Shown piece by piece: positions 8,674-38,034 of a DNA stretch of 38,344 nt. Position numbers and translations under genes: made by a program. Below the pieces are notes generated by a model. It saw only the letters and a list, made by a program, of their open reading frames with translations, had not been told where the DNA came from and did no database searches. Origin of the DNA: a virus; IMG/VR virus record IMGVR_UViG_3300047586_000254, positions 1 to 38,344 of that record. The stretch is one strand, 5' to 3'. Position 1 is the first letter of the stretch, and every line of letters begins with the position of its first letter.

Positions 8674-8931
8674 CTACGCGGTCAGGTAGTCGCCGACGAG
8701 GGGCTCAAGAGGCCCTTCGAGACTGACGAGCGTGTCGAACGTGTCCTTGCAGGCCATGACGAACGCGTATGGGTTGTCCGTGGCGTTCGGGTAGTCGCCT
8801 GAGCCGATCGGCTGCAGCCAGGGGTCCACGCTCAGCATCCCGACCGCCAGTTCGTCCCCGGAGAGCTTGCCGTCCTCCCAGGTGATCGGCATCGTGATCC
8901 GCTCGAAGAGGACCACCGCGTCGAGGCGCAT
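8674..8931 (-). CDS. small hypothetical phage protein
   Basis: An 85-residue protein whose ATG shares a base with the stop of the minor head polyprotein gene (TGATG), so it is translationally coupled. It starts MRLDAVVLFERITMPITWED and is acidic, without membrane or catalytic motifs. I do not recognise a family. It probably helps head assembly, judging only from position. A longer frame running into the previous gene is a shadow. Confidence 0.65.
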   Translation of the reverse strand: MRLDAVVLFERITMPITWEDGKLSGDELAVGMLSVDPWLQPIGSGDYPNATDNPYAFVMACKDTFDTLVSLEGPLEPLVGDYLTA

Positions 8932-11897
8932 CAGACACCCGCCATGAGCCCGAGGAAGAAGCGCGCGCTCTCGGGGTCCTTGGACCAGATCTTCGCCTGG
9001 TAGTCGAGGCTGCCGAACAGGTGCTCGGCGGCCGAGGACATCAGCTCGGTGGCGTAGCGCGTCCCGTCGGGGGAAACGTAGCTCTTGCCGGCGTAGTCGG
9101 TCCAGAAGTTGTCCTTGCGCGTCATCTCGTTGGAAGCATAACCCTTTCCGAGCCACACCAGTTGGTTCTCCGGCGTGGGGGCGCTCGTGCGCTCCTCGTA
9201 GTATTGGGCGACCTTGGCATGGAGCCCGGGCACGACGTCCTCGAAGTAGTGCCCCAGCTCGTGGCGGGCGACGCGCTCGGAGCTGACGTCGCCGGGTTCC
9301 AGGTAGATGCCGTTGCTCAGGTAGCAGGAGGACTTGCGCCCAGTGCCCGCCCCGGGGTAGGTGCGATAGACCTTCAGGCTCCCCGTGTAAGGGACCGTGT
9401 CGACCCAGTCCTTCGGGTAGACCTGAGTCGCCTGCTTCAGCGTGGCCGTCTGAGGCTTGATCCCGTTCCCATATTGGATCTGCAGGTCGCCGCCGACCGG
9501 ACGCACCTTGGCGAGCAGCTCCTTGGCCACCTCAGCCCGGGTTGCCTGCCCCTGGGTCGCGGTCTCCCAGTCCTTGCGAGCCGCGAAGAACTGTGACGTC
9601 TTGGCGTGGTAGACCTTGTAGGCCTCGTTGACCGCCGCCGCCTTGACCGAGTCCGGCTTCCCGCGCATCCGCGCACGCACCTTGGCGATGTCCTTCTCCG
9701 CCTTGTCCATGGCCTCACGGGCGCTATCGACCTTCTGCTTCAGGGGCAGAGTGACCTTCTCCACGGCCGCCATGCGGGAGTCGATCTCGTCGCCCAGCAC
9801 GTTGCCCAGGCGCTGCACGTCCTCGTTGGTGACGACGCCGGCAGCCCTAATGCCGCGTGCCTCTTCCTCCCAAGTCGGCGGGACGAAGGCCGGCAGGTTC
9901 ATCTCCAGGTCCTTCTCGACCGGCACGGCCACTGGAGGCGCTGGCGGCTTGACCTCAGGATCCACGGTCCCGTGCTCGTCCGGCTGCTTCAGGCTCTTAG
10001 CGTCCGAGACGCCCTTCTTCTCGTAGCGGACGGCACAGCGGCAGTTGATCGTGTTGTCGGCCGTGGCCCCGCGCGAGCAGTCGCCGGGCACCATCAGCTC
10101 CTGGATCATGCCCTTGGAGTTGGCAACCTTGAACGGCTTGTCGATATCGACGGTCTGCCCGTTGGCCATCCGGTGCCAGAGGCGTGTGCGGTTCGAGCCC
10201 ACCTGCGATCGCCAGGTCTTCTTCTGGACACCGGCGTCGGTGGCGATCCCGAGCTGGCCCCGGCGGTTGGCGGTGATGACTTCCGTCCGGGCGATGCGCT
10301 GGCCTCGGACCTCGTTGAAGGCTGGTCCGAGCTGCTGGACGCGCTGGGAGAGGCTGTCGATGCCCTCGCCCTTGGAGAGACCGTCGGCTAGGGAGTTGAC
10401 CAGGCTCTGGTGCGTCTCGGCGCTGACCTGGTTGACCACCCGCTTGATCGTGGTTCCCCTCAGGGCCTCGTCGGCTCCGGATACTGCCAATTCCCAGCTT
10501 ATCTGTCCGGAGAAGTTGACTCCCGAGCCCGTGAGCCCGGAGGCGAAGCTGGCCGTCTGGTCCTTGTCAAAGACGTACTCGCCGTTTGGCTGCGGCTTCA
10601 TCCCCAGGCGCTCATAGAAGGGCCCCGCGCTCACTGTCGCGCCCCAAGTGGTGATCCCATGGCCGTCGTCGGCAGCGATCGCCGAAGCCTCGCGCATCAT
10701 GCGCCGGCCGACGCCTGCGCCCTTGGGCGACGTCGGGTCGACCGCGATGCCCGAGACCTCCACCATGCCGGTGTGCTCCGAGAAGCGGTGATCCATGATG
10801 CCGCCCAGCTTCCCGTCCGGGCCGAAGAAGCCCGAGACGTTGGCCGAGCCGTTCCTCTGCACGTCCTTCAGCAGCGAGTCAGCCAGGTCGCCTCGAAGGC
10901 CTCCCCACTCGGACACCTGAGTCCGAAGCGCGTCGACCTCCGCCGCGTCGATCGCCCGGTAGGTACCCTGCGGCCCTTCCAGGAAGCCGACCTGCGTCCA
11001 GGCGCCCCCAGTGTCGGGCACGCGCTGGGCGAGGTTCATGGTCTTGACGGGGTCGAGCCGGTAGTAGCCTGAGTACTTCTGCTCCTCGAAGCCCAGCCCC
11101 TTCCAGAAGGCGTCCGAGTCAGGACCCGGCATGGCCTTGATGCCCAGGCCCTTGTCCGTCGCTACGTTCGCCAGCTCGCGGACGAGTTGCAGCCCGGATC
11201 CGGGTACGCTCGCGTCCAGTGAGCCGAAGCTGTCGATGACCATGTGGTCGCTTTCGTTGCGCCAGTTGGCCACGGCCAGGGGCCGGCTGGCGCCGTCACG
11301 CAGGATGGCGTTGTTGGAGCCCTGGTTCTGCAGCCTCAGGTTGACCGCTGACCACATCGAGCGCGCCGCCATGGAGTCCTCGTCCTGTAGCGGGGCCAGC
11401 TCTTTGAGGAGGCGCTGAGACTGGACCCGGGTGAGGTTGCTGGTGAAGCCGGGCTTGGCCGCCCCTGCTGCCGGCAGGCCGCTGACGCCGCCCGTGCCCA
11501 CGGCCTCCGTCAGCCCCTGCTGCAGGATGGCCTGCAGCGTCTTGCTGCTCTCCGTCATCGTCTGCGTGCCGGGGTCGTAGGACTGTTGGCGCAGGGTGAC
11601 GTCCTCCAGCCAGGCGTGGTAGTTGAGCGCCGTCTCCGGAGGCAGGTCCTTCAGCGAGGCCTTGGCGACCGGGAGCAGCGTCGGAGGATGCGCCTTGACG
11701 TATGCCACGTAGAGCTGCTGCTCGCGCTTCAGCCAGGCGTTGATCTGCTCAGCCAAGAGGGCCATCTGCCAGGACATCGCCCGGACGTCCAGCCCGGACC
11801 CGCGTGGCAGGCCGGCCTTGATCCACTCCTCGTGCTCGTAGGCCGCCGCTTTGAGGACCACGCGCCTGAGCGCGGCCTTCGCCACTTCGATACTCAC
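8931..11897 (-). CDS. minor head polyprotein: two GNAT domains, Mu F-like head morphogenesis domain and zincin domain
   Basis: A protein of about 988 residues from the GTG at 11,897, which overlaps a short upstream frame by GTGA. Visible parts are: a helical N-terminus (1-165); a GNAT-like domain (190-285) ending FWKGLGF; a second GNAT domain (340-445) with IAVDPTSPKGAGVGRRMM and PFYERLGM; and a phage Mu F/SPP1 gp7-type head morphogenesis domain (490-630) with RIARTEVITANRRGQ and NCRCAVRYEKKG. A coiled coil follows (700-790), then a metallopeptidase-like domain with HELGH at 879-883. The minor head domain predicts packaging in the virion. The enzymatic domains could modify virion or host proteins on DNA entry, which is inference. 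Confidence 0.8.
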   Translation of the reverse strand: MSIEVAKAALRRVVLKAAAYEHEEWIKAGLPRGSGLDVRAMSWQMALLAEQINAWLKREQQLYVAYVKAHPPTLLPVAKASLKDLPPETALNYHAWLEDVTLRQQSYDPGTQTMTESSKTLQAILQQGLTEAVGTGGVSGLPAAGAAKPGFTSNLTRVQSQRLLKELAPLQDEDSMAARSMWSAVNLRLQNQGSNNAILRDGASRPLAVANWRNESDHMVIDSFGSLDASVPGSGLQLVRELANVATDKGLGIKAMPGPDSDAFWKGLGFEEQKYSGYYRLDPVKTMNLAQRVPDTGGAWTQVGFLEGPQGTYRAIDAAEVDALRTQVSEWGGLRGDLADSLLKDVQRNGSANVSGFFGPDGKLGGIMDHRFSEHTGMVEVSGIAVDPTSPKGAGVGRRMMREASAIAADDGHGITTWGATVSAGPFYERLGMKPQPNGEYVFDKDQTASFASGLTGSGVNFSGQISWELAVSGADEALRGTTIKRVVNQVSAETHQSLVNSLADGLSKGEGIDSLSQRVQQLGPAFNEVRGQRIARTEVITANRRGQLGIATDAGVQKKTWRSQVGSNRTRLWHRMANGQTVDIDKPFKVANSKGMIQELMVPGDCSRGATADNTINCRCAVRYEKKGVSDAKSLKQPDEHGTVDPEVKPPAPPVAVPVEKDLEMNLPAFVPPTWEEEARGIRAAGVVTNEDVQRLGNVLGDEIDSRMAAVEKVTLPLKQKVDSAREAMDKAEKDIAKVRARMRGKPDSVKAAAVNEAYKVYHAKTSQFFAARKDWETATQGQATRAEVAKELLAKVRPVGGDLQIQYGNGIKPQTATLKQATQVYPKDWVDTVPYTGSLKVYRTYPGAGTGRKSSCYLSNGIYLEPGDVSSERVARHELGHYFEDVVPGLHAKVAQYYEERTSAPTPENQLVWLGKGYASNEMTRKDNFWTDYAGKSYVSPDGTRYATELMSSAAEHLFGSLDYQAKIWSKDPESARFFLGLMAGV

Positions 11898-12104: not shown

Positions 12105-14117
12105 TCACTCCTCCTCGGTCGTCTCGCGGACGCCGGTTATCAGCCCCGCCGCGTTGGTGATGAAGTCCTTCTTGGTGATCGTCTTCTTGGGCTTGCCGTT
12201 CTTGGGCGCCTCGAGCACGATGGCGCCCTTCTCAATCTGCACGATCGGTGGGCCCTGGCTGGCGATGGCCTCAGCCAGCTCGTGCACGCCGTCGTCCCGG
12301 ATCAGGTTGTGGCCCTGGGGGAAGACCTCCTCGACCTGCTCGATGACGAAGCCCAGGTCGCGGGCCATCTCTTGCAGCCGGCGAAACTCGGACCAGCTCT
12401 TGGTGACCGCCGCGTTGCCGGGCGGAGGCGCGATCGCTCCTGGCGCCGGCGCAGGCGGCTTGCCACCTTGGGTGGCCACGCTGTTCATGGCCGCCTGCAG
12501 GTCGTTCATCGGGACCACGGTGCCAGTGCCCGAGACGTCGCCGGGGAAGGCTCCGACGTTGGAGCCGCGGGTGATCTCGAACGGTCTGCGGCCCCACTCT
12601 TCCAGCTCGGGGTCGATGGTCTCGCCGGTGTCGGGGTCGATGCCGGCCTTGCCGTAGTCGTTGGCGTCGCGGACCTCATTGACCGTCAGCGCCTGCTGGT
12701 AGTAGCTGCGGGTCCGGGCGATCTGTTCCTCGTCAGAGAGGGCCATTTCATTGAACTTGAACTCGATCGGCAGCTCGTCGCCGAAAGTGTCCTCCAGAAG
12801 CCATTGCAGCCGCGTCTCGTAGCGCTGCTGGTCCGGCTTGATGACCTGCTCCTTGAACGTCAGATCCTGGTCCTTGGAGTTGGCCAGGTTGGCGTTCTCC
12901 ACGATCGTCACCTTCGAGGGGCTCACGCGGTGGGCCATGATGACCTGGTCGCGACACCACTTGCGGTACTCGATGAAGGAGGCGTCCTCCTGGCCGGAGG
13001 CGCCGACGGTCAGCTTCTCGATGCTGATGCTCACGTTGGACCCGGCCTCGGTCTCGAGAAGCATGGTCTTGTGAGCCTCGCCTCTCAGGCCCTCGCGCAT
13101 GTAGTTGACGACGTAGTCGCGGGTGTCCGGATCCAAGCGCCCGCCGTTCACGCAGATGGCCAGCCGGGGGACCGCGTTGTTCAGGAAGAACTGCTGCTGG
13201 TAGGCCTGGGCCGCCTCGTCGCCCAGCATGTCGCCCAGGGCGGGCAGGTGGTCCGGGTGGCCGTAGAACGGGTTGGTCGGGGTGACCTCGAAGAACATCA
13301 TGATCTCGTTGGTGCCTTGGAAGCGCTCCGGGTTGGCCGTGTCCTCAGCCGCGCGCCCGTAGTCGCGGAAGTGCCGGTACTCGCCCATCCACTTCTGGAC
13401 CCAGCCGTCCCGGTCCTTGCGCCGGCGCAGGGTGTAGGCGTGCATATGGAAGAAGCCGTCCGGCTCGCCCTTGCCGTTGCGGGTGATCTCAAAGCCGCCC
13501 CAACCGACCGACTCCTCGTCCTTACGGATGGCGTTCAGCAGCTCGTCGATGGACTTGCCGTCGCGTCGGGCGCAGCCCTCCAGCCACTTCTTGACGCCGG
13601 CCTGCAGCTCCTTCTGGTCGGTGTCCTCGAAGCCCTCCTTCAGGTCGAGGCGCCAGCCCAGCCCCACGCAGTTGGCGGTCTTGGCGTCCACGCAGGCCTT
13701 GTGGGCGACGTTGCGATCGTAGAGCTGCACCATGGCCAGGGGATCCACCAGGGGCGGAGCGCACTTGACCTCGTCGTAGGCCCACTTGCCCAGGTCCAGG
13801 CGCTCAGAGGTGCCGGCGCCGTCGAGCTTCTCGCGGGCGGGGGCCTCGATGATCGAGGCGAAGGCCGCCGGCGTCTGCTTGTTGGGAGGGGTCTTGTCCC
13901 GGGTGTCGATCGTCGCCGAATGATCCACGCGCGCCAGCGCCCGGGAAGCCGCCTGGCGGGCCGCGTCGCCCTCCGGGCCCTGCAGCAAGGAGGCCGAGTC
14001 GACGCCGGGCGCGCTGGAGTACTGCTGCAGCACGTTGCCCGTGGGGTCGATCGCGGAGAGCGGGTTGGGGATGTCGCCGGGCTTACCGCCCTTGTCCCTG
14101 CCAGGTACTCCGGCCAT
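12105..14117 (-). CDS. portal protein, PBSX-family-like
   Basis: A 670-residue protein between terminase and the minor head gene. Typical portal features are the N-terminal Pro/Ala-rich region, then KWAYDEVKCAPPLVDPLAMV and NVAHKACVDAKTANCVGLGW. The body contains GEYRHFRDYGR, EIMMFFEVTPTNPFYGHPDH and QQFFLNNAVPRLAICVNGG. The conserved end of the portal stem/crown region is visible as YRKWCRDQVIMAHRVSPSKV and FKEQVIKPDQQRYETRLQWL. The 'TPTNPFYGHPDHLPAL' pattern is typical of PBSX-type portals. The C-terminal 120 residues are proline-rich with a predicted coiled helix. Its ATG overlaps the terminase stop by one base. Confidence 0.88.
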   Translation of the reverse strand: MAGVPGRDKGGKPGDIPNPLSAIDPTGNVLQQYSSAPGVDSASLLQGPEGDAARQAASRALARVDHSATIDTRDKTPPNKQTPAAFASIIEAPAREKLDGAGTSERLDLGKWAYDEVKCAPPLVDPLAMVQLYDRNVAHKACVDAKTANCVGLGWRLDLKEGFEDTDQKELQAGVKKWLEGCARRDGKSIDELLNAIRKDEESVGWGGFEITRNGKGEPDGFFHMHAYTLRRRKDRDGWVQKWMGEYRHFRDYGRAAEDTANPERFQGTNEIMMFFEVTPTNPFYGHPDHLPALGDMLGDEAAQAYQQQFFLNNAVPRLAICVNGGRLDPDTRDYVVNYMREGLRGEAHKTMLLETEAGSNVSISIEKLTVGASGQEDASFIEYRKWCRDQVIMAHRVSPSKVTIVENANLANSKDQDLTFKEQVIKPDQQRYETRLQWLLEDTFGDELPIEFKFNEMALSDEEQIARTRSYYQQALTVNEVRDANDYGKAGIDPDTGETIDPELEEWGRRPFEITRGSNVGAFPGDVSGTGTVVPMNDLQAAMNSVATQGGKPPAPAPGAIAPPPGNAAVTKSWSEFRRLQEMARDLGFVIEQVEEVFPQGHNLIRDDGVHELAEAIASQGPPIVQIEKGAIVLEAPKNGKPKKTITKKDFITNAAGLITGVRETTEEE

Positions 14118-15730
14118 CAGCCAATCACTGCTCCTCTCACCAGGCCGAGGGTCGAGCGCCTGAGCGCGATCTCGGCGTAGCTGTCAGCGTGTGCGAAGTG
14201 ATCGGGACCCCGCTGAACCCACACGGCCTTCTTCTGGCCGGTCTGGGGGTCCTCCTCGATCTTGCGCAGGACGTTGGTCATCTGCCGCACGTACTCGGTC
14301 AGCTCGTCTTCCACCCGGGGGATGCGGCGCTTGCGGAGCTTGTAGACGTCCCGCCAGGCGTCCAGGGCCTCGGTCCGGTTAACCGTCACGATGCGGGTGT
14401 TCTCGGCGTCAAAGCCCCAGCTCGCCGTGCCCTTCTGCTGGCCCCCGTAGTAGGCGCACCAGACCCGCCCGGGGAAGCGCTTGTTGAAGGCCCGGGCCGC
14501 ATGGGTGTTGGGGAGAGCGTCGATGACGCAGAAGCGGACGTCGTAGGTCTCCATGAGCGCATCCAGGTGACTGAACAGGGCGTCGGTCTGGGGCTCGTGC
14601 TGCACGCGGATGGTGAGCACGACATCGCCGTGCGGCTCCTTGATGACGATGTGGAGGCCGTTGCCCTGGTCCACGCCCATCACGCAGCCCTTGCCCCGGG
14701 GAGGCATGCCCCACTTGCCGCCGCAGGCCAAGAGATCGGCTTCGGAGAGGCCGCCCTCGGCGCCCAGGTAGGGCAGGCCCAGCTCGGAGTTGAAGAACTC
14801 GCCGGGGAACTTCGTCTCCCGCCACAGCTTGAGGAGCGCGGCCGGCTTCGTGTAGCAGCCATCCTCGGTCTCCTGCTGGCTCACGATCGTCGAGATGAAC
14901 TTGGTGATGTGGTAGCCGCGCCGGGCCCGGCTCGGGTAGAGGGCCACCCAGTAGCCCTTCGCGGGATCCAGGGCGTGGCCGCAGCGCAGGCACACCAGGG
15001 TCTCGCGCCCGGGTCCGCCCTTGACGAAGCAGATGTCCGTCCGGGGGTCGTCCGGGGCGCCGTGGTGATCGAGGAACTCGTCCTCGAGGCAGTGCCATCC
15101 CGAGCAGCCCGGGCATTTGAGCAGCCAGTGCCGTTGATCGGTGGCGATGAAGGCCGCGTCGATGCCGTACTCCGGCAGGCTGGGCGTGCTCACGTCCAGC
15201 TCCCAGCCCCAGGCCGAGTGCCCCAGGCGCTTGCGGGCCAACTCCACGTTCTCCGGCTTCATCTCGTCCAGCTCGTCAAAGACCAGGAAGTCGGCCGGCA
15301 CGGACTTCATCCGCGTCCGGCTGTTGGTGCCCCGGAAGTAGATGGCGCCGTTGGGCCCGATCTGCTTGTAGCCGGCCGTGTCGGTGTCACGGACCAGGGA
15401 GCGGAAGTACTCACTGTCCCGGACGGCCGGGCCGAAGCGGTCCCGGCTGAACTCGCCGACGTCGTTGTCGGTCGGGAAGTAGTAGATGACGCGGCCGCCA
15501 TGGACGACGCAGAAGTGCAAGGCCCGACTGATGGCGTACTCGCTCGCGCCCATCTGGGCCGCCTTGCGGATGATCACGAAGGGGGCGACGTCCCGGTAGA
15601 TGCCCTTCAGATACTCGTGGCCCTCGTAGGAGAACGGGTCGCTCCCGATCTCCCGGTTGACGAGGCACCACTTACTCAGGGACGGCGAAGCCGCGAGGCA
15701 TGATGTCACCTGGCTGTGGACCTGGCGCAT
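14117..15730 (-). CDS. terminase large subunit, GpA-like
   Basis: About 537 residues if started at the ATG at 15,730; longer upstream starts and a GTG at 15,712 are possible, and no candidate has a convincing ribosome site. It powers DNA packaging. The ATPase P-loop-like segment is RKAAQMGASE, as in GpA-family terminases. The Walker B-like segment is FLVFDELDEM. A zinc-binding pair CPGC / CLRCG follows. The nuclease half shows GVDQGNGLHI, VIDALPNTHAARAF and DHFAHADSYAEIAL. It overlaps the small terminase gene by about 59 bases with this start. Confidence 0.85.
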   Translation of the reverse strand: MRQVHSQVTSCLAASPSLSKWCLVNREIGSDPFSYEGHEYLKGIYRDVAPFVIIRKAAQMGASEYAISRALHFCVVHGGRVIYYFPTDNDVGEFSRDRFGPAVRDSEYFRSLVRDTDTAGYKQIGPNGAIYFRGTNSRTRMKSVPADFLVFDELDEMKPENVELARKRLGHSAWGWELDVSTPSLPEYGIDAAFIATDQRHWLLKCPGCSGWHCLEDEFLDHHGAPDDPRTDICFVKGGPGRETLVCLRCGHALDPAKGYWVALYPSRARRGYHITKFISTIVSQQETEDGCYTKPAALLKLWRETKFPGEFFNSELGLPYLGAEGGLSEADLLACGGKWGMPPRGKGCVMGVDQGNGLHIVIKEPHGDVVLTIRVQHEPQTDALFSHLDALMETYDVRFCVIDALPNTHAARAFNKRFPGRVWCAYYGGQQKGTASWGFDAENTRIVTVNRTEALDAWRDVYKLRKRRIPRVEDELTEYVRQMTNVLRKIEEDPQTGQKKAVWVQRGPDHFAHADSYAEIALRRSTLGLVRGAVIG

Positions 15731-16118
15731 CTGCGTCGGGGAGAGACTCCTCAGTGAGTCGAAAGACAATTCCACTAACGGTGGCGTCTGGTTTGACGAC
15801 AAGCTCGGCTCCATCCTTCCCGGTGTGCTCGACCCGCTCGATGTAGCCACGGTCCTTCGCCTGGGTCTTCAGGTAGAAGATGATGGCCGTGATATCACCG
15901 GACAGGATCCGGGAGTAAAGCGATGACTCGGCGTTGTCCTTCATGGTCTCGCGGGCGTCTTCCAGCGCCTCTCTCAGGCTGGGGCTTCGGTCGCAGCGCC
16001 GCTTAATGGTGCGCCGGCTGAGTCGGTAGCGCCGGGCGATCGCCGCCACGTTGCCGTGCAGATCATCGATCGCAGCGAGCAACTCCTCGTGCGAAGGCCC
16101 TTTTTTTATAGCGGGCAT
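15672..16118 (-). CDS. terminase small subunit
   Basis: A 148-residue protein with a helix-turn-helix near the N-terminus (GNVAAIARRYRLSRRTIKRR), followed by a helical oligomerisation region (LREALEDARETMKDNAESSL) and the segment ITAIIFYLKTQAKDRGYIER, typical of small terminases. It recognises the packaging site and lies immediately before the large subunit. Confidence 0.82.
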   Translation of the reverse strand: MPAIKKGPSHEELLAAIDDLHGNVAAIARRYRLSRRTIKRRCDRSPSLREALEDARETMKDNAESSLYSRILSGDITAIIFYLKTQAKDRGYIERVEHTGKDGAELVVKPDATVSGIVFRLTEESLPDADAPGPQPGDIMPRGFAVPE

Positions 16119-16128
16119 GTGGGCAACC

Positions 16129-17415
16129 TCACGCGTCGGAGGAGCGCTCCAGGATGGGCGTCATACCCATGCCAGCAAGCCGCTCCAAAGTGACTGCCAC
16201 GTAGCGCGGCTCCAATTCCATGCCGTACACGACCCGGCCGAGCTGCTCACCCGCCACGATCTGACTGCCGCTACCGCAGAAGGGCTCGTAGCAGATCTCG
16301 CCCTCCACGGTGTGTTGGCGCATGGGGATGGCGAAGACCTCCACCGGCTTTGAGGTGGGGTGCCCGTTCGAGGTACCGTCGTTCACGATGTCCAACTCCC
16401 ACACCGACTTCGGAAACTCCTCCGAGCAGCGCTTGGGCTTATGGCCCTTCACCCACCCGAAGAAGCAGGGCTCGTGCTGCCACATGTACCAGGTGCGGGA
16501 AAGGACCGGCCGGTTTTTGACCCAAATGATCTGCTGGTGCACAAGCACGCCGTTGCTCGCCCAGGCCCGATGGACCAGGTCCGAACGGACCCCCGCGTGC
16601 CAGCAGTACCACGCGGCATCTTCGGTGATGGCCAGCTCCTTGGCCACCTTACAGAAGTCCTCGTAGAGCGTGTCGGGGTCGCCGACGTGGTCCCAGTCTT
16701 TGTAGCTCTCCGAGCAGTCGACGCCGGCGTGCTCCTTGCCTTTCTTCTTCTGACGCCCCCAGGAGAGCGGCCGGTTGGTGCCGTCGTAGTCGACCGCGTA
16801 GGGGGGATCCGTGGCAAAGAGAACGGCCCGCTGCCCATCCATCAGACGGGCGACGTCGTCTCTGTTGGTGGAGTCGCCGCAAAGGAGCCGGTGGGCGCCT
16901 ATCGGCCAGAGCTGCCCATGCTCCGTTCCCCACCTCTTCTGCAGCTCATCGGCTATGTCCAGGCGGGGCTCCGGCGCTTCGGCCGGGGTGCCGATGACAA
17001 TGTGGTGCTGCTCTGCCAGTGCCTTGAGGTGGGCCATGAGGCCCGCTTCCTGCGTCTGTGCGTCCTTCAGGATGCTCTCAAGGACGTCCTTGTCCGCGAC
17101 CGCCATGGCCGCGATCGGATCGAGAGACAGGATGGCAAGGCCCTCTTGCTCCTCGGGGATGTCCACGAACAGCACGGGGGCCTCAGGCACCCCGGCGCTC
17201 AGGTACTCCTCGATCCGGGCGTGGCCGTCAAGCACGTAGCCCGTGCGCTTGTTGACCAGCACGCGGTCGATGATCCCCAGCTCGCGGAGAGAGCCGCGCA
17301 GGGCGTCCCGTTGCTTGTTTGGGTGGCGCCGGTAGTTCTTCGGGTTGGCGAGGAGCTGGTCGACCGGGACCATGGCCCAGTCGACGATCTGACACCGAAA
17401 CGGCTCCTCGGTCAT
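16129..17415 (-). CDS. ParB-like/DNA methyltransferase fusion
   Basis: A 428-residue protein. The ATG at 17,415 overlaps the upstream stop as ATGA, preferred over longer starts. Residues about 15-100 form a ParB/Srx-like N-domain (LLANPKNYRRHPNKQ, YVLDGHARIEEYL). The methyltransferase domain has ATDPPYAVDYDG before FCGSGSQIVAGEQ, the beta-class order for N6-adenine or N4-cytosine methylation. The tail ends PRYVAVTLERLAGMG. Such phage-borne enzymes usually lack a partner nuclease and may protect phage DNA from host restriction. It stands just upstream of terminase, so it is expressed with late genes. Confidence 0.88.
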   Translation of the reverse strand: MTEEPFRCQIVDWAMVPVDQLLANPKNYRRHPNKQRDALRGSLRELGIIDRVLVNKRTGYVLDGHARIEEYLSAGVPEAPVLFVDIPEEQEGLAILSLDPIAAMAVADKDVLESILKDAQTQEAGLMAHLKALAEQHHIVIGTPAEAPEPRLDIADELQKRWGTEHGQLWPIGAHRLLCGDSTNRDDVARLMDGQRAVLFATDPPYAVDYDGTNRPLSWGRQKKKGKEHAGVDCSESYKDWDHVGDPDTLYEDFCKVAKELAITEDAAWYCWHAGVRSDLVHRAWASNGVLVHQQIIWVKNRPVLSRTWYMWQHEPCFFGWVKGHKPKRCSEEFPKSVWELDIVNDGTSNGHPTSKPVEVFAIPMRQHTVEGEICYEPFCGSGSQIVAGEQLGRVVYGMELEPRYVAVTLERLAGMGMTPILERSSDA

Positions 17416-17513
17416 TTCGGCCGCCGGCATGCGTAGACGATGATGGCCACGCCGACGACCGCTGCTTCCCAGCACAGGACGCCGAGGACCACCCACTCCA
17501 GGACCGTGCTCAT
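17412..17513 (-). CDS. 33-residue single-membrane-segment peptide
   Basis: A tiny gene of 33 codons between HNH and methyltransferase genes, joined to both by four-base ATGA overlaps, which strongly supports translation. The peptide MSTVLEWVVLGVLCWEAAVV, with more hydrophobic residues and a basic end (YACRRPK), is one membrane-spanning segment with the C-terminus probably in the cytoplasm. Function is unknown. Small membrane peptides in late operons are sometimes lysis or anti-host factors, but nothing here shows that. Confidence 0.7.
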   Translation of the reverse strand: MSTVLEWVVLGVLCWEAAVVGVAIIVYACRRPK

Positions 17514-19224: not shown

Positions 19225-22125
19225 TCATACTTGCTTTATGGTCGGGCTCCCGTCGAGGGCGCGAACGAGTTCAGCAATCTTCTCCGCCAGCTCGGCCTTG
19301 ACGATAATCTTCAACTGCACTTGAGCAAAGCTGGCCCCATTCTCGTCTACGCAGGTTGCAAGTTGCTGAAGCAGAGAGTAGAGGGCGTCCCGTCTAGCTT
19401 CTTCAGACAGGCTGATGCCCATAAACGAGAAGAAGACTTCGGCCTCGGCTGACGTTGAGACTCCCCTGCCCCCGACAACCGGCTCAGGTCCGGGACCATC
19501 ACCCTCTCTCCCTCCATTCTCGTCTGTCCCCGAGCCGGATCCTTCGGCACTTTTGACTAGCCGCAGTCCTGGTTGCCCCACCGCGATCTCGCTGGCCTGG
19601 GTAACAGCACGATCCGCGCCATCGGCACCGGTCAGACGGAGGCCGCCAGACTTGACCGCCTCAAAGATTGCCTCTTGCAGGTCAACGTCCCCTTGGGGCA
19701 ACAGTGACATCCGCGGCGCGCTCCAGAACGAGTCCCGAATCTCGTCCAAGGGTTTCTCGTAGTCGTCAAGGCGAAGGTTGTGGACTAGCACCTTGGCGGT
19801 GAAGCCGCCAATTTCAAATGCCTTGTCAGCCTCGACTAGCGCCTTCCAGACCACGGTCCCGTCGAGCGAACTCTGGTTCTCTTGCTCCAGAGTTATCGTT
19901 CTCTCGACCCGCGGCTCTCCCTGAGCCTCCTGACCCATTCCGAGGTAGATAACGTGCTGGAAGGCCTGCTTGACTGCCCGTTCCAGCTCGCGCCGGGCAT
20001 CTGTCATCTCGTCCTTGGCCTTCTCAGCTAGCTCGGGATCTCCCTGCACTTCCCCCATCCCTGAGACCCGCCGCCACGCCAGATAGTTCACCGCGGCCTT
20101 GCGCGCGTTCTGCCGACGTTGCGTATTCACGACCGCGAAGACCGCCGAGGATGCCCACTTCACCGTAAGCTTGTCGGGGCCGAGTCCCAGCGCTGCACGA
20201 ATGGCCGCTCGCGTGTCTTGGTCGACGCCGTTTAAAAGCGAGAACTGACGAGGGTCGAGCACAACGAGGCGAGTCGTGCGGGCGTCGTCGATACCAGAGT
20301 CTGCAAGCACCTCCCGAGGCGAGCGTGTTAGGTCGGCGTTGACAAACAGTTTCGTCTTGAACGGGCCCGTCGACACAAGCCTCTCTGCTGTTCCTGCAAC
20401 CTCGCTGTCTCGGTCCTCATCGTTGATCCCGCTAGTCGCGGCGCGTACCAGCATGTTTAGTGTCTGCCGCGTCGACATGAAGAGACGAGGCGATTGCCCT
20501 CCTTTTCCTGGGTTCACCTCGGCGGAAGCCAACCCGCCGCCTTCCGCGTCTTTGATCTCGCTGATAATCCCGTCCGCGTCCGCGTAGGTGAACGAGCTAT
20601 CAGGCGCGAAAGCCGCGGCTTTCAGTTCCTGCTCGGTGGCTCCTTGACGGCCTCCGCCGCGCGGCCCCACAATGGAACACAAGAACAAACACGTGGCCGC
20701 GCGCTCCGTAGCACGTGGATTGGCGAGCGCGAACAGCGTGTTACAGTGTGCCTTATCCAGCAGCCGAGCGGAACCAGACTCATCATCCGTACCGACGATG
20801 TCAGTCGACGCTAGCTGGCGGTAGTTCGCCTGAGCCCGGACGTCTGCAATGAGACCTGACCCTATCACGGCCTCTCGGACGTTGGGCTCTGAGAGAACGA
20901 TGTCGCCAGGGCCGATCAGCAGGGGTGTCCAACCACCCTTTTGCGCACGCTCGCTCAACGCGTAAACCGTCGCGGCAAAGATGCGCATTGTGGACCTCAC
21001 CCGCTGGAATCCGGCTAGCTTCGACCACTCCTGTTCCGCGTAGTGAATCAGCTGTGGGTGGAAGGGATAGCAGCGGTCCACACTCGCCGCCCACTCGCGA
21101 GCCCACGGCATTCCCAGCGCATCGAATACCTTGGATTTCCACGGCTCAACCATGCGTTGCTCAAACAAACGCGAGGTAGCCGCCATTACTTCATTCGGGG
21201 CGCGATTCTCGAAAAGACGCCGACGTAGGATCGCGGAAAAGTCCGTGTTGTCATTGATTGTCGCGGGCTTTCCGTTGCGATTTAGTAGCTGGTCGAGTTC
21301 ACCCCGACGTGATAGTCCTTCGTCATCGAGATCCATGCTGTCCTTCTCGGACGCGATCATGACGACGACCATGGCAACGTGCGGCACGTCGTTAACAACG
21401 TCGAGAAGGGCTCGAAGGAATGCCATGTCCCTAACCGCGAGATCGTGAAGGGCCGTGTCGGAGAGCTGGCGGACGTAGTCCATGATCTCGTCGACGAGGA
21501 TGAGGACCGGTCGGCCGACCGCGATAAGTGCGTCCGCAAGCTTCGATTTGTCGGCGTAGTACGGTTGGTAGCGTTTGAAGAGCGCGACATCACCGCCAAA
21601 GAGACGCCACAGAAATCGCTCTTGCAGTGACACGGCCGGACCATCATGCTCGGGGACGCCTTTGCCCGCTGTCATGTTGTCACAAGCCAGGATGACAACC
21701 TGGGGCTGTCCTAGTTCGCCAGCAATCGCACCCCCGACCATCTTCTCGGCCTGTCCGAATGCAGCTTTGCCAATGTCGGTCGCCAAGAGGGCTTGGGGCG
21801 CGGCAGCTGCATGGTAGAGCCCGATGAGACCGTGGGACTTACCTCCCCCCATCGCCTGATCGAGTCGCCAAAGAGCGGGCGCGGCAGTGTAGGCCGCCCC
21901 TCCACCCAGCCGTACAATCACCTTCGCCATGAGGTCGATGAATTGGGGCGACGGGTGCGTGATTTCGCCATAGTATCCAGGGATCGCGTAGGGCGGTCGT
22001 TCAGCAGCAGTCCCGTAGGCGGCCTGAAAGAGGGACATCTGGACGTCGTCGATTGAGCCCGCGGACCGCACCACCTCTGCCCGGATCTTAAGGGTGTCCC
22101 ACCACGGTGTGACTGTCTGTCCCAT
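19225..22125 (-). CDS. DUF499-type P-loop ATPase of the defence-like cassette
   Basis: A 966-residue protein resembling the DUF499 family, known from defence islands beside DUF1156 methylases. Walker A is AMGGGKSH (residues about 91-98) and Walker B is ILVDE (about 209-213), followed by YVRQLSDTALHDLAVRDMAF. The segment HVAMVVVMIASEKDS looks like a sensor strand. A Gly/Glu-rich linker (GSGTDENGGREGDG) near residue 870 separates a C-terminal helical domain ending IAELVRALDG. It lies 16 bases after the methylase stop in the same direction. It may move on DNA or couple ATP hydrolysis to sensing; that is inference. The coding sequence is less GC-biased than surrounding phage genes. Confidence 0.82.
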   Translation of the reverse strand: MGQTVTPWWDTLKIRAEVVRSAGSIDDVQMSLFQAAYGTAAERPPYAIPGYYGEITHPSPQFIDLMAKVIVRLGGGAAYTAAPALWRLDQAMGGGKSHGLIGLYHAAAAPQALLATDIGKAAFGQAEKMVGGAIAGELGQPQVVILACDNMTAGKGVPEHDGPAVSLQERFLWRLFGGDVALFKRYQPYYADKSKLADALIAVGRPVLILVDEIMDYVRQLSDTALHDLAVRDMAFLRALLDVVNDVPHVAMVVVMIASEKDSMDLDDEGLSRRGELDQLLNRNGKPATINDNTDFSAILRRRLFENRAPNEVMAATSRLFEQRMVEPWKSKVFDALGMPWAREWAASVDRCYPFHPQLIHYAEQEWSKLAGFQRVRSTMRIFAATVYALSERAQKGGWTPLLIGPGDIVLSEPNVREAVIGSGLIADVRAQANYRQLASTDIVGTDDESGSARLLDKAHCNTLFALANPRATERAATCLFLCSIVGPRGGGRQGATEQELKAAAFAPDSSFTYADADGIISEIKDAEGGGLASAEVNPGKGGQSPRLFMSTRQTLNMLVRAATSGINDEDRDSEVAGTAERLVSTGPFKTKLFVNADLTRSPREVLADSGIDDARTTRLVVLDPRQFSLLNGVDQDTRAAIRAALGLGPDKLTVKWASSAVFAVVNTQRRQNARKAAVNYLAWRRVSGMGEVQGDPELAEKAKDEMTDARRELERAVKQAFQHVIYLGMGQEAQGEPRVERTITLEQENQSSLDGTVVWKALVEADKAFEIGGFTAKVLVHNLRLDDYEKPLDEIRDSFWSAPRMSLLPQGDVDLQEAIFEAVKSGGLRLTGADGADRAVTQASEIAVGQPGLRLVKSAEGSGSGTDENGGREGDGPGPEPVVGGRGVSTSAEAEVFFSFMGISLSEEARRDALYSLLQQLATCVDENGASFAQVQLKIIVKAELAEKIAELVRALDGSPTIKQV

Positions 22126-22141
22126 GACCCATCCTTCCCGC

Positions 22142-24850
22142 TCAATCGAAGAGTGATCCCTGCCCGGTTCTCATCTTCTTGTTGGGCGTCTTCCGTTTTG
22201 ACACAGCAAGTGCTTCGTCCGCCGATGCCCCGACGCCTCGTCGATTCCTCAGGAGACTGTTCCACGCAACTGCGTCAGGATCAGCTTCCGGAAGTTTTAT
22301 GGACAGGTACCGCATGGCTGCCCACAAGTAAGCGTCATCAGAATTCCGGTTCGACAAAGCTAATACGTCGCCTGCGGCATCCAGTCCTGCCGGCCACGCT
22401 TGAGCCATGGCCATCGCGACATCAATAGCTGCTGAGTTGTCGTTAATATCGCCTTTGAACTCGCGCGAGTAGGCCAAGCGAGTGCCCTTGTCTGCGTCGG
22501 CGAGGATTCCCTTGAGCCTCTCGAGGGGAAGATCGGCCGCCAGAGATTCCCAACGAGCTTCGGACTTAGGGGCGACGGATCGTCCGTACAGACGCGCCCA
22601 AGAAAGAGCGAAGCGGGTGCGGGAATCAAAGGTTTCGAGCGGAAGGTTGTCGATCTGTATGGCAGCCGCCTCGTCCACCGCACGACGGGCAACAAGAAGA
22701 TATCGCTCTGGGTCCACCGTTTCCCCCCGGTTGTCCAACACGGTGCTATATCGGCCCACGACCTCCATCGCTGGACCCGCGGAAGCCATGCGCTGATCAG
22801 TTGGGGCGAGCCCTACAGCTTCCCACGCTGGGACCCGGGCTTTGACCTCATTCCTCACCTCAGCTTCCACCAGGCTTGCTCTGCCTTCCGGACGGCAGGC
22901 GGGCGCTGGTCGGCACGACATCGTGAGGGTCGTGACGATGTTGGAGAAGCCTGCCTTACCGCCCTTCTCCGTTTTGGCCGGCCAGGACCCCGTTAGAACC
23001 AAGCCGGCGTTGGTAATTGCGCCGAGGAGCCGGTGCCAGACCTCGGGTTCCCCATGGCCGAATACAATCGTCACAACGCCGTCGGGTCGTACTACCCGCC
23101 GGCTTTCGGCGAACGCCCGCGCTATGAGACGATCGTACCTTTGCCGAGTGCGGAAATCGTCATTGCTGGTTCCGCCCTTCTTCACGATTATCTCGTCCGT
23201 CTTCTCCTGGACCCCGTGCGGGTCTGCGGTGAAGGCGAATTCGGGCATGACCGACGCCAGCGAGCGCTTCAGCCAGACGTAGAAGAGATCGGACGCATCC
23301 GTATAGTCAATCATCGCGTCGTAGGGGGGGTCCGTGACTACTGCCGCCACCGACTGATCGGGTAAGGGCACAGCAAGCGCAGTACCACGCGTGATTCTCG
23401 CTGGCACGCCCGGGCGCCTGTTCACTTGGCGTGACAACGCGGCAAGCGTGCCTTGTGCAATCGACTCCCATGTCCCGGGGCCGTCGCCCAAACCAGCTTC
23501 GAAGTAGTCGTACGAGAACGCCAGGCTCGATTCTGTCTGGAAGATATCGGAGACGCCCTGTCGGCTGATTGCCAAAACGCAGCCCCTAGTGGCTCGGCGA
23601 AGCTTGCGCGCCATGACGGCGCTCGCGTAGCCGCATAGCGCGCTCGCATAGTCTTCGGAGACGCCGGACCGAATGAGTTCTGCCCCAAGCTCCTTGATAG
23701 TCCGGGCTAGTCGAACAAAACCGAGAGTCTGCCTGGCGTTGCACATATCGCCGTAGGTGCGAGCGCCGTAGACGGTTGCCTGGACGGTCCACGTGTTGCC
23801 CTTGGGGATTTCCTCGTGGGGAACAGCCGGAAGACCCTCTTCGAACGGAGGCTCATTGGCAAGCGCGAGCTCGGCGTCCAACGCAGCTCTCGCCTCTTCT
23901 GGAGTGACCTCCCGGTACGTCTTGCCGCATCTGTCATCCAGGTCCGCAGCCAGCAGCAGCGCATCCTGACCCCTTCGCTCACTGGCTAGTCGCGTATGTA
24001 CGTCTTTTGGATGTACATGGCTGCAGAAGGGGCACACGGCGACCTTTCCCGAAGCGGAGTATCTGCTTTTTCCCGCTAGCACCCTGGTCGGCACGCCCGT
24101 AGGTTCCCCTTCTTGCACTACCACCTGCCACTCGCCGCTCTGCCTATCCGCGACAATTCCAAAGCTCTGGCCGGAGTCTCCTTTCCCGGGATTGGGAGGG
24201 CGCAACGCAAGCGAGCCCACCAAAGGAAATCTGCGACCGCACTCCTGGCAGGGCAGCGTCACCGCCCACAGGTAGCCCCACGGCTGCTTTCCGCAGACTT
24301 TTGGGTAGAAACCCTGCATTGCAGCCGAAAACCGTGCCGACACCTCATTGAGAACGTTGGTGACGTCAGCGAGAAGACGTGGCTGTAGGCTGTCGGGGGA
24401 ACGAAGCGGCAAGGCAGGTTCATTGGACCAGTCCCTCAGGGGGTAGTCTGCGAGAAGCCGTCCGGCCAAGGTCGCCACAATCGAGTAGTCGATGCCATAC
24501 GCTTCGGTCCCGTAGCGAGCAGCCTCGAGCGGGAGCATCGCTCTACCTGAGAACGGATCCAAGAGCGAAACCGTCCCCTGATACCAACGGCCAAGCTCAG
24601 TCTGTACCTCCTTCTGGGCTGAGTCGTAGTCCTTCAGCGCACGGCGTACTAGGTCCTGAAGGCGTCGCTGCTCCGATACATCGTCGGGCCACGGTAGGAG
24701 GCTTGTGATAACAGCCGCGCGCGCTTGCGCCAATGGCCGCTTAGCAAACCAGGGGAACAGCATCGCCTCGCTGTTCCCACTGCCCCACCCGGAATAGGAT
24801 GCCTCACTAACCTCGGCGCACGGAAACCAGCGCTCAATCATCCGGGTCAT
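22142..24850 (-). CDS. DUF1156-type DNA methyltransferase of the defence-like cassette
   Basis: A 902-residue protein. The N-terminus (SGNSEAMLFPWFAKRPLAQA, then RAAVITSLL) matches the DUF1156 pattern 'WWARRPLAAARA'. The AdoMet motif is LLDPFSGRAMLPLEAARYG (about residues 96-114), and the catalytic motif DPPY is at 507-510, followed by DAMIDYTDASDLFYVWLKRS. Cysteine pairs (CQECG near 190 and CPFCSHVH near 260) may bind zinc. The order is AdoMet motif first, then DPPY, with a long insertion between. The ATG overlaps the helicase stop by four bases. It probably marks self DNA by adenine or cytosine methylation. Confidence 0.88.
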   Translation of the reverse strand: MTRMIERWFPCAEVSEASYSGWGSGNSEAMLFPWFAKRPLAQARAAVITSLLPWPDDVSEQRRLQDLVRRALKDYDSAQKEVQTELGRWYQGTVSLLDPFSGRAMLPLEAARYGTEAYGIDYSIVATLAGRLLADYPLRDWSNEPALPLRSPDSLQPRLLADVTNVLNEVSARFSAAMQGFYPKVCGKQPWGYLWAVTLPCQECGRRFPLVGSLALRPPNPGKGDSGQSFGIVADRQSGEWQVVVQEGEPTGVPTRVLAGKSRYSASGKVAVCPFCSHVHPKDVHTRLASERRGQDALLLAADLDDRCGKTYREVTPEEARAALDAELALANEPPFEEGLPAVPHEEIPKGNTWTVQATVYGARTYGDMCNARQTLGFVRLARTIKELGAELIRSGVSEDYASALCGYASAVMARKLRRATRGCVLAISRQGVSDIFQTESSLAFSYDYFEAGLGDGPGTWESIAQGTLAALSRQVNRRPGVPARITRGTALAVPLPDQSVAAVVTDPPYDAMIDYTDASDLFYVWLKRSLASVMPEFAFTADPHGVQEKTDEIIVKKGGTSNDDFRTRQRYDRLIARAFAESRRVVRPDGVVTIVFGHGEPEVWHRLLGAITNAGLVLTGSWPAKTEKGGKAGFSNIVTTLTMSCRPAPACRPEGRASLVEAEVRNEVKARVPAWEAVGLAPTDQRMASAGPAMEVVGRYSTVLDNRGETVDPERYLLVARRAVDEAAAIQIDNLPLETFDSRTRFALSWARLYGRSVAPKSEARWESLAADLPLERLKGILADADKGTRLAYSREFKGDINDNSAAIDVAMAMAQAWPAGLDAAGDVLALSNRNSDDAYLWAAMRYLSIKLPEADPDAVAWNSLLRNRRGVGASADEALAVSKRKTPNKKMRTGQGSLFD

Positions 24851-27800: not shown

Positions 27801-28071
27801 GCAACGTTGCGGCTCCGTCGGAAGCAGCGGAGGACATCCACTGCGTCCACAAACCAGCTAGGACGCGACGCGAATCGCCACCCCCATCCGGTTCAAGGAT
27901 TTGGATGTTCTCAGCCTCAGCTTCGGTCTGATCTACCCTTTCGAGGCCTCCGGTGTCGGTGCGAACGTATAACCTCCAGCCGGCGGCTGATTGGATTGCG
28001 TCCTCAATAGTCACCCACTCAGGCAGATGTTGCCCTGGAATGTGGATGCGCTGGCCGACTTCTAGTTGCAT
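24847..28071 (-). CDS. SNF2-type helicase with C-terminal DUF3883-like domain
   Basis: A 1,074-residue protein, the first gene of the cassette. SF2 motifs are visible: DEPGTGKT (122-129), FDEAHRL (221-227), MTATPHRGSE, FTEYADTADWLV, FVSTDAGNEGIDLQ and QRMGRIHRVGQ. The last 120 residues contain GYDLYATRGQMQRCIEVKG, a D...E-K pattern of DUF3883/PD-(D/E)XK-like domains, so it may cleave or bind DNA ends. SNF2 proteins of this build (DrmD) serve in class 1 DISARM. No DrmA, DrmB or DrmC is present here. The start has a weak AAGGCG ribosome site; 78 bases separate it from the previous gene, and I find no strong promoter there. Confidence 0.87.
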   Translation of the reverse strand: MQLEVGQRIHIPGQHLPEWVTIEDAIQSAAGWRLYVRTDTGGLERVDQTEAEAENIQILEPDGGGDSRRVLAGLWTQWMSSAASDGAATLLASTPLRPYAHQSNAVYGAMLPQPRLRFLLADEPGTGKTIMAGMYLREMQRLGLVNRALIVVPAGLVSKWKADFERFFGGELRRITNETVQQHGLVAPHDMWVISLELAANNASVQDAIRPDRGAWDIVVFDEAHRLTPTAETLYRVGSLLAKNSRLALLMTATPHRGSEWLFRHLLHLVDPAVYPDPGNDPKPELRPIKPGPIHFLRRMKEDLVDYDGKTPLFKGRRATNKTIPLSVQEYAFYTEALGMVDEFFPASAAPLARMVYGKRAASSLYALAETLRRRSASMGSVSAAEATLAADPNDEDPSAQEEARVVTEGSKSAARERRAIEDLLGRLEPLVTSGDHPVSKWKPLVVECLGEQGIKPGNSEQAVLFTEYADTADWLVKRLVHEGFSARRYSGRDTHQVRDEVRAAFMSHDFQIFVSTDAGNEGIDLQAARVLVNYDIPWSLVRLEQRMGRIHRVGQTRDVELFNLIAQDTREGDVLAVLLRNFVDAANQLEGKMFDSLSLVAELTGLGDERLATLLADAYGQDEAKRTAALSAAKMITASKLVAAAEQARKEEAVLASAVDVATAIRQLRDDVLERINPAIVEAYLQRLDRADVFRLAQTASGEGIYQLSTIDGSLLSAELGGRRRAVVATSGNAVTVALAAGAVLTGVPTIGPGEPAFNSLVLAAQSRLAPDVFRGGTVADPTSIQDYGLFAFEAKVTEGGGKKHSPWTALIRVDEAGARPVRWEVLANLTESGGNSEGPMHPARLYDAQARAQQLLLEDQEKRKAAQIAWLQKAEKELRALPGRISQDVPERERRVETRSRVQRMVDERLAELRVLTDVVISGLRLTAHVLVRAQGIPAEPTEADSERIATKRVRDLLAADGWAVADVHTEGRGYDLYATRGQMQRCIEVKGLWGSASSTGVRLTGNEILIATQQRGDYWLYVIDRCGEGQGLVFGVYRDPVSTFAGLIQQQAIFTIPGSALLDARDRVDSA

Positions 28072-36450: not shown

Positions 36451-36519
36451 TTCATGATAGGGACCCTGACGGACAGATGCGACCCCTGCAAGGCCGCAAA
36501 TTGCGCGCATCTTGCGCTG

Positions 36520-36536
36520 AGCGGACAAGGTCCGCT
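36520..36536. repeat. perfect inverted repeat upstream of integrase
   Basis: AGCGGAC and GTCCGCT form seven-base arms around a three-base loop. A shorter palindrome, CGCAA-A-TTGCG, lies at 36,495-36,505. They stand between the LexA-like box and integrase start, and may be regulator sites or an RNA hairpin in an integrase leader. Confidence 0.4.
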
Positions 36537-36606
36537 GTGGACGGACGCATTGTGCGGAGAAATCCTGCCGGGAGCCGTCCGCCGTACTAGGTACACTCCT
36601 CATCTG

Positions 36607-38034
36607 ATGCGCACCTTCGCCTACATCCGTGTCTCCAAAGAGCGCGACGATATGATCTCGCCGGAGATCCAGCGAGACGAGATCACCGCCTACTGCAACA
36701 AAAAGGGTTGGGAGGTCTCCGAGTGGTTCCAGGATCTCGACCTATCGGGCCGCTCCTGGGACCGCAAGAAGCGCCGCGGCCTGGACGACCTCATGGCCCG
36801 AGCCCTCGCCGGCGAGTGCGACGCGGTCGTCTTCTATCGCATCGATCGCCTCAGCCGCGAGGAGGAAGACTTTCACGCGGTCCTGGCAGCGCTGCAGCGC
36901 GCCGGCGTCGTGTGCGACTCGCCCGGCAACCCGAACGACGGGTCCCCGGAGGCCTCGCTGATATGGTCGATTTCGGCCGCGCTGGCGAAGTACGAGTCGG
37001 TACGTCTGGGGGCCAGGATACGCGACGCCCACCGGAAGCTTGCCCGGATGGGACGCTGGTCGGGCGGGCCGGTTCCTTGGGGATGGAAGCGGGTTCGGGA
37101 CGAGAACGGGGTACGGTTAGTCGGCGTTCCGGAACTGACAGAGATCCGTCTGTGGATGCATGAAAAGTATCAGCAGGGGTGGGCGCTTAGGCGGATTGCT
37201 CGAGCACTGAACGAGAAGGGAGTGCCGACCAGGTCAGGCGGGAGCTGGTTCGAAAAGACAGTGCTAGTCATACTCACCACCCCCTTGCAGGTCGGCGCCC
37301 GAGTGGCTGACGGCGAACTGGTCTTCGGCGGGAACGTTGAGCCCCTCATCCCTTACGAGGTCTTCCGCAAGACCACGCTCGCCGTGGAAGCTCGCAAGGG
37401 AGGGCCACAGCGTGGGCGCGAGCCCCGAGTGCCCTTGACCGGACGTCACGTACGCTGCGGGACCTGCGGAGGGCCCATGTACTGTCGCTACGCCCACAGC
37501 GTCAACGACCTGTACTACCAGTGCTATCACAGGAGCCATGGCCTCTGTGAGCGCGGTGTCGCGGTGAAAGCCTCGTGGCTCGTCCCCGAGGTCGAGAGGA
37601 AGCTGCTTGCCCGGGTGGGGGAGACGAGGGCCCGGGAACGGAGTCTCAGGATCGTCGACCCGGTCGAACCGTTGGCGAATGAGGTGCAACGAATCGAGGC
37701 AACCCTTGGGCAGCTGACCTCACTGTTCGTCGACGGAGAACTCCTCGAGGGGGAATACCGTGAGGCACGCAAGCTGCAGTTGAAGCACCTGACAGACGTG
37801 CAGAAACGCCTCGACAACGCTGTGAGGCGCGTGGAGGTCATCGTGCGGGCCGATTATGTCGAAACCGTTCTAGCCGGCCTTTCCGACATCGGACCCGAGG
37901 GCTGGGCAGCCCTGAGCGTGCCGGCGAAGCGGGACATCTTCGATGTCGTACTCGACCGAGTGATCGTCTACCCGAAAGACCAACCCAGGAACCGCTGGGC
38001 TCCTCCCCATAAGATCAAGATTCTCTGGCGCTAA
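36607..38034 (+). CDS. large serine integrase
   Basis: A 475-residue protein started at ATG 36,607; a 51-codon upstream extension lacks a ribosome site and is atypical. The resolvase domain begins AYIRVSKERDD with catalytic Ser10, and the arginine-rich FYRIDRLSREEEDF follows. The recombinase domain contains GWALRRIARALNEKGVPTRS. The zinc ribbon is RCGTCGGPMYC with QCYHRSHGLCERG. A coiled-coil motif follows (LDNAVRRVE region). TACACT at 36,592 could be a -10 placing the start close to ATG. It catalyses attP x attB integration and, with a directionality factor, excision. Confidence 0.93.
   Translation: MRTFAYIRVSKERDDMISPEIQRDEITAYCNKKGWEVSEWFQDLDLSGRSWDRKKRRGLDDLMARALAGECDAVVFYRIDRLSREEEDFHAVLAALQRAGVVCDSPGNPNDGSPEASLIWSISAALAKYESVRLGARIRDAHRKLARMGRWSGGPVPWGWKRVRDENGVRLVGVPELTEIRLWMHEKYQQGWALRRIARALNEKGVPTRSGGSWFEKTVLVILTTPLQVGARVADGELVFGGNVEPLIPYEVFRKTTLAVEARKGGPQRGREPRVPLTGRHVRCGTCGGPMYCRYAHSVNDLYYQCYHRSHGLCERGVAVKASWLVPEVERKLLARVGETRARERSLRIVDPVEPLANEVQRIEATLGQLTSLFVDGELLEGEYREARKLQLKHLTDVQKRLDNAVRRVEVIVRADYVETVLAGLSDIGPEGWAALSVPAKRDIFDVVLDRVIVYPKDQPRNRWAPPHKIKILWR

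Follow-up and report, generated by a model that had tools for sequence, protein, structure and literature searches.

The closest described relatives of the locus reported here are the MuF polymorphic toxins of temperate phages (PMC5576092), in which a MuF protein of the packaging module ends in a variable C-terminal effector, a metallopeptidase in 20% of cases, and is accompanied by a small downstream ORF; that work describes MuF toxins with metallopeptidase domains together with such small ORFs or immunity genes, and its main text mentions neither GNATs nor acetyltransferases. The polyvalent proteins (PMC5512222) are large, virion-linked phage proteins that join unrelated enzymes, and the sections of that survey drawn on here include a zincin hub domain and RimI-like GNATs, the phage GNAT typically adjoining an ART domain. 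Tandem GNATs are also known as free enzymes or secreted effectors: VipF, MshD and 2wpw each consist of two fused GNAT folds, of which the N-terminal one is non-catalytic in VipF and MshD, and those tandem GNATs that have been characterised have a single active domain (PMC10936415). Among head proteins, SPP1 gp7 reaches the inside of the procapsid in low copy number, directed there by the portal, and of virions without it only about 25% are infectious (PMC6316719). MuF fusions have been proposed to carry toxins by gp7-like head targeting.

Here we describe a minor head gene in a 38-kb virus contig (IMG/VR record IMGVR_UViG_3300047586_000254), whose full 38,344 nucleotides we call the window. 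Judged by its sequence, the product is a minor head protein of the MuF polymorphic-toxin or polyvalent kind, in which a tandem GNAT is a new and fixed insert. It shares with the MuF polymorphic toxins the packaging-module location, the variable C-terminal effector, the small downstream ORF and the temperate phage, but differs from them in carrying a tandem GNAT ahead of the MuF core, as part of a conserved vehicle. Unlike the typical phage GNAT of the polyvalent proteins, its GNATs do not adjoin an ART domain, and the order tandem GNAT-MuF-zincin is not described in the sections of the survey cited above; in contrast to VipF, MshD and 2wpw, the GNAT pair forms part of a head protein. We consider it likely that this portal-associated protein serves as a polymorphic-toxin-like vehicle with a stable core and an exchangeable C-terminal module, whose packaging and delivery we infer by analogy.

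Domain layout and genomic setting

The gene order terL-portal-MuF-XkdF-type protease-capsid places the minor head gene downstream of the terminase and portal genes and upstream of those for the protease and capsid (Table 1). In an alignment with its sister gene in the related phage L196, the starts of the two genes coincide; the GTG codon concerned, at 11897, overlaps the stop codon of an upstream ORF of 30 codons. The GC content at third codon positions is steady (0.84-0.92) over the whole length. The presence of a large serine-type integrase indicates that the phage is probably temperate; a search of the record for a tyrosine-type integrase found none.

The original prediction had read the protein as two GNAT-like segments preceding a MuF domain, with a zincin motif, HELGH, near the C-terminus. 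This assignment was borne out by Pfam, by a profile match between the two GNATs, and by AlphaFold and Foldseek, which supported the folds of both the GNAT pair and the zincin. The multi-domain head gene is real, and none of the evidence for its domains lies at chance level: Phage_Mu_F (PF04233), for instance, matches residues 500-623 with an E-value of 3.3e-11 (44.4 bits versus a cut-off of 29.6). The N-terminal region gave no match in a Pfam search of residues 1-149, nor in HMM alignments of the N-terminus against other MuF proteins.

Two further loci in the window are of separate interest. Three genes at 19225-28071 (minus strand) form an Hma-like cassette (HmaA helicase, E 1e-85; HmaB methylase, 7.5e-36; HmaC ATPase, 4.6e-31), a probable defence system carried by the phage, and a gene at 16129-17496 (minus strand), upstream of the terminase genes, encodes a fusion of a ParB-like N-terminal part and an N6/N4 DNA methylase (phrog_498).

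Table 1. Features of the minor head locus and of the packaging and integration genes, in window coordinates; the GNAT boundaries are approximate.
Feature	Position	Strand	Evidence or remark
Small ORF, 85 aa, candidate immunity/inhibitor gene	8674..8931	-	overlaps stop of minor head gene as TGATG
Minor head protein gene, 988 aa, GTG start	8931..11897	-	ORF open across whole span; adjoins terL and portal
Zincin domain, aa 781-988	8934..9557	-	alignment, conservation, model, Foldseek match to PPEP-1
HELGH, aa 879-883	9249..9263	-	HExxH invariant in 28/28 aligned sequences
Linker and coiled segment, aa 645-780	9558..9965	-	effector-swap junction at ~aa 645-650; L196 protein ends here, L200 C-terminus differs
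MuF core, aa 484-631 (IARTE ... INCRC)	10005..10448	-	PF04233; phrog_2468, E 9.8e-30; alignment
GNAT2, about aa 312-452	10542..10964	-	Pfam Acetyltransf_1/7; loop K392-G-A-G-V-G397; Tyr428; model
GNAT1, about aa 150-291	11025..11450	-	GNAT fold, degenerate active site; VPG[ST][GA].Q at aa 231-237; Trp265 at Tyr position
Helical N-terminal region, aa 1-149	11451..11897	-	helices at low pLDDT; 43% identity to L196 over aa 1-165
Portal protein	12105..14117	-	PF04860, E 1.8e-24
Terminase large subunit	14117..15850	-	GpA_ATPase; phrog_675, E 2e-105
Large serine-type integrase	36454..38034	+	phrog_95 integrase, E 3e-90; phrog_125 DNA invertase

A recurring core and an exchanged C-terminus

Scans of viral and genome contigs with a single protein (the whole sequence or its N-terminal half) returned just one MuF relative and none of the GNAT-MuF type; the sister phages were found with a profile of GNAT2 (L196) or of the portal (L200/L201, L199 and L202). 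L196 has the same gene order as the window, with 70% identity in the terminase and 54% in the portal, and its 652-residue protein consists of the N-terminus, both GNATs and the MuF core, ending before the zincin. Identity to the window protein is 43% overall and varies by part (GNAT1 and GNAT2 35% each, N-terminus 43%, MuF core 51%). The 901-residue protein of L200/L201 is 33% identical to that of the window, and its C-terminus gives a DUF3626-like match (E 1.5e-5) and also resembles gp2 of mycobacteriophage D29, while L199 and L202 are partial relatives with the same core.

A stable core made up of the helical N-terminus, the tandem GNAT and MuF recurs in four other divergent phages. The C-terminus is exchanged at one junction after the MuF core: the window has a zincin, L196 none and L200 the DUF3626-like module. 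The comparison goes beyond the original prediction in placing the GNAT part in the conserved core and the zincin in a swappable module with a candidate immunity gene. Outside the sister group, a GNAT was found in none of 138 MuF or zincin loci. The sister phages, with a zincin, with another effector or with none, provide a clean natural comparison, and this set, together with a candidate zincin inhibitor, would allow testing whether MuF head proteins deliver toxins.

In sister phages, large ORFs with no family match lie between the portal and MuF genes (L202:4056-7420) or after the portal gene (L204:3755-5392). A further MuF protein (L130:4099-7941) contains an intein-like insert inside its INCRC motif (PF14890, E 0.0029).

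The tandem GNAT pair

GNAT2 scores above the Pfam cut-off as Acetyltransf_1 (match at about residues 367-436) and GNAT1 has no Pfam match; the two are linked to each other by phmmer (1.9e-6, an E-value for a single comparison) and by hhalign with family alignments (97.6%). An AlphaFold model of residues 2-480 contains two units, each with the order b-a-a-b-b-b-a-b-a-b, and most blocks have a pLDDT of 76-97; the mean pLDDT of 73 and pTM of 0.41 make the packing of the domains in it unreliable. MAFFT alignments that split the rows of host GNATs were left out of the modelling, and the alignment that was modelled took only the motif A-B stretch of those GNATs, so that the model of GNAT2 leans on assumed homology. 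That of GNAT1 does not, as the alignment there contains its own family only, and it shows the full GNAT topology at a pLDDT of about 83-97. The best Foldseek matches of the pair in the PDB are tandem GNATs over about 270-330 columns (VipF 7wx5, 2wpw, the Eis family and MprF), and in BFVD it matches, among others, ctQWe10 (a minor capsid protein) and a virion component of a Staphylococcus phage.

GNAT1 additionally aligns with the phrog_1917 head proteins of Herelleviridae (hhalign 96.2%, E 2.4e-9), whose member in phage A3R carries the annotation "structural head protein confirmed by immunogold Electron Microscopy". The phrog_1917 gene adjoins terL (for example L156:1889-2770 and L210:2474-3274), is found in 522 phage records and, like GNAT1, encodes a degenerate GNAT-like domain, which lies at the C-terminus; unlike the window protein, its product has a single such domain, no MuF and no effector module. 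If right, the tandem GNAT would join the repertoire of phage head components, and its fold would be tied to a so far unexplained head protein in the widely used phages of Staphylococcus, Listeria and Bacillus. A chance resemblance of GNAT1 to GNATs was rejected on the basis of the phmmer result, the hhalign matches (to GNAT2 and phrog_1917) and the model topology. A recent capture of a host gene by the window phage alone is disfavoured, because five divergent phages share the core and the better match of GNAT1 is a virion protein.

The active sites of the two domains differ. GNAT2 of the window phage retains G395-V-G397 in the loop and Tyr428 at the catalytic position, with Lys392 in place of the Gln/Arg, and is predicted to be catalytic; GNAT1 retains the GxG/A of the CoA loop, has lost the preceding Gln/Arg, and has Trp or Phe at the position of the catalytic Tyr in all four family members that cover it. 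GNAT1 is therefore best described from its residues as a GNAT fold, and is not classed as an active acetyltransferase; it goes part of the way towards refuting the original prediction, which called for AcCoA-binding residues in the domains. The original prediction, in which both GNATs are active and are delivered together with the protease, draws on the GNAT topology of both domains and the GxG loop that both keep in the window phage. The loss of the Tyr and the Gln/Arg in GNAT1 makes two active acetyltransferases in the head protein unlikely, and the use of a single domain by tandem GNATs of known activity (PMC10936415) both fits the degenerate GNAT1 and speaks against this reading, which we regard as barely credible; as a claim of two working enzymes, the prediction over-read the sequence.

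Across the sister group GNAT1 is better conserved than GNAT2, with its VPG[ST][GA].Q motif invariant in all five phages that share the core, while GNAT2 erodes: its loop is lost in L200 and its first half is missing in L199, the Tyr being kept in both. These patterns bear on a competing explanation that we place a little short of even, in which the pair is purely architectural, a catalytically dead spacer or a head module contacting portal or DNA, like the GNAT-like domain in the head proteins of Herelleviridae, and only the C-terminal module acts as an effector. The invariance of the VPG motif despite the loss of Tyr and Gln/Arg, the decay of GNAT2 in L200 and L199, and the annotation of phrog_1917 as a virion head protein, for which neither a MuF nor an effector partner was seen, all point in that direction. 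However, GNAT2 keeps its GxG and Tyr428 in both the window and L196 at a domain identity of 35%, which scaffolding alone would not require, and its Tyr persists even in L200 and L199. If the pair instead works like other tandem GNATs, GNAT1 would be non-catalytic, perhaps a CoA-binding or assembly domain, and GNAT2 would be the only possible acetyltransferase, with an activity that is dispensable in relatives. A more elaborate, two-tier version, in which the head protein injects the fixed tandem GNAT (GNAT2 active, GNAT1 regulatory) to modify a host target at entry alongside the swappable toxin/immunity module, strikes us as quite improbable.

The zincin, its linked small gene and possible delivery

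The suggestion that HELGH marks a zincin was upheld. The motif (H879-E880-x-x-H883) is present in 28/28 aligned sequences and the third ligand, Glu951, in all 26 that reach that position, so that by alignment the active site is complete; two further Tyr residues are invariant. The fold is predicted to be PPEP-1-like: the model (pLDDT 83) has PPEP-1 as its best Foldseek match in the PDB (probability 1.00), with an E-value of only 1.5e-3 and a TM-score of about 0.5, and a sequence comparison with the PDB gave no significant match. The domain resembles the PPEP-1/ATLF-like zincins (M34-related) in its best structural match and in having HExxH with a downstream Glu, but differs from them in belonging to a phage-specific family with 68 residues between HExxH and Glu. 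It is common to many phages of Lactococcus, Streptococcus, Flavobacterium, Bacillus and others. An ADP-ribosyltransferase annotation of one relative is unsupported, as the HExxH sits in the stretch concerned.

Zincin-MuF genes are linked to a small downstream gene. An ORF of 50-120 residues directly follows the MuF gene in 39 of 41 zincin-MuF loci versus 4 of 26 short-MuF loci (Fisher p 1.3e-11, with related sequences counted as independent). The 85-residue ORF of the window is matched by an HMM built from four of these ORFs with an E-value of 2e-5 (best control 0.18), the zincin-less L196 has no such ORF, and L200, with another effector, has a different one of 69 residues. This linkage matches the pattern reported for MuF toxins and their immunity genes (PMC5576092) and makes the 85-residue ORF a candidate immunity gene travelling with the zincin.

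The zincin could instead be a maturation protease, cutting the fusion or other head proteins in the procapsid and freeing its domains, with no toxin involved and with the small gene encoding a head or chaperone protein. Self-processing has been proposed for the MPTase domains found in polyvalent proteins, P1 DdrB among them, in the sections of PMC5512222 used here. Yet a separate XkdF-type protease already adjoins the minor head gene, L196 manages without any zincin, an unrelated domain takes its place in L200, and the paired small ORF tracks zincins rather than MuF as such; we hold this role to be unlikely.

Under the preferred vehicle reading, a few copies of the protein would bind the portal, enter the head in the manner of SPP1 gp7 and leave with the DNA. 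The substrate of the zincin would then be either a protein of the host or the fusion that carries it, and the lysogen producing it would be protected by the downstream gene. The virus may in this way carry and inject a multi-part weapon on infection. Delivery into the host is plausible by analogy, although it does not follow from the targeting of SPP1 gp7 to the inside of the head that this protein leaves together with the DNA. Architecture, conservation, module swapping and the linked small gene are observed in sequence and models; what we infer is packaging, injection, a protease target, immunity and any acetylation.

Finally, the small proteins share a feature at their C-termini. The window ORF ends in GDYLTA and departs from most of the others: 29 of the 39 small proteins encoded after zincin-MuF genes (L006-L065) end in [IVLM][YF], against a background of 1.9%, a count that spans several families and includes relatives that are not independent. 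Such a tail may enter the zincin active site.
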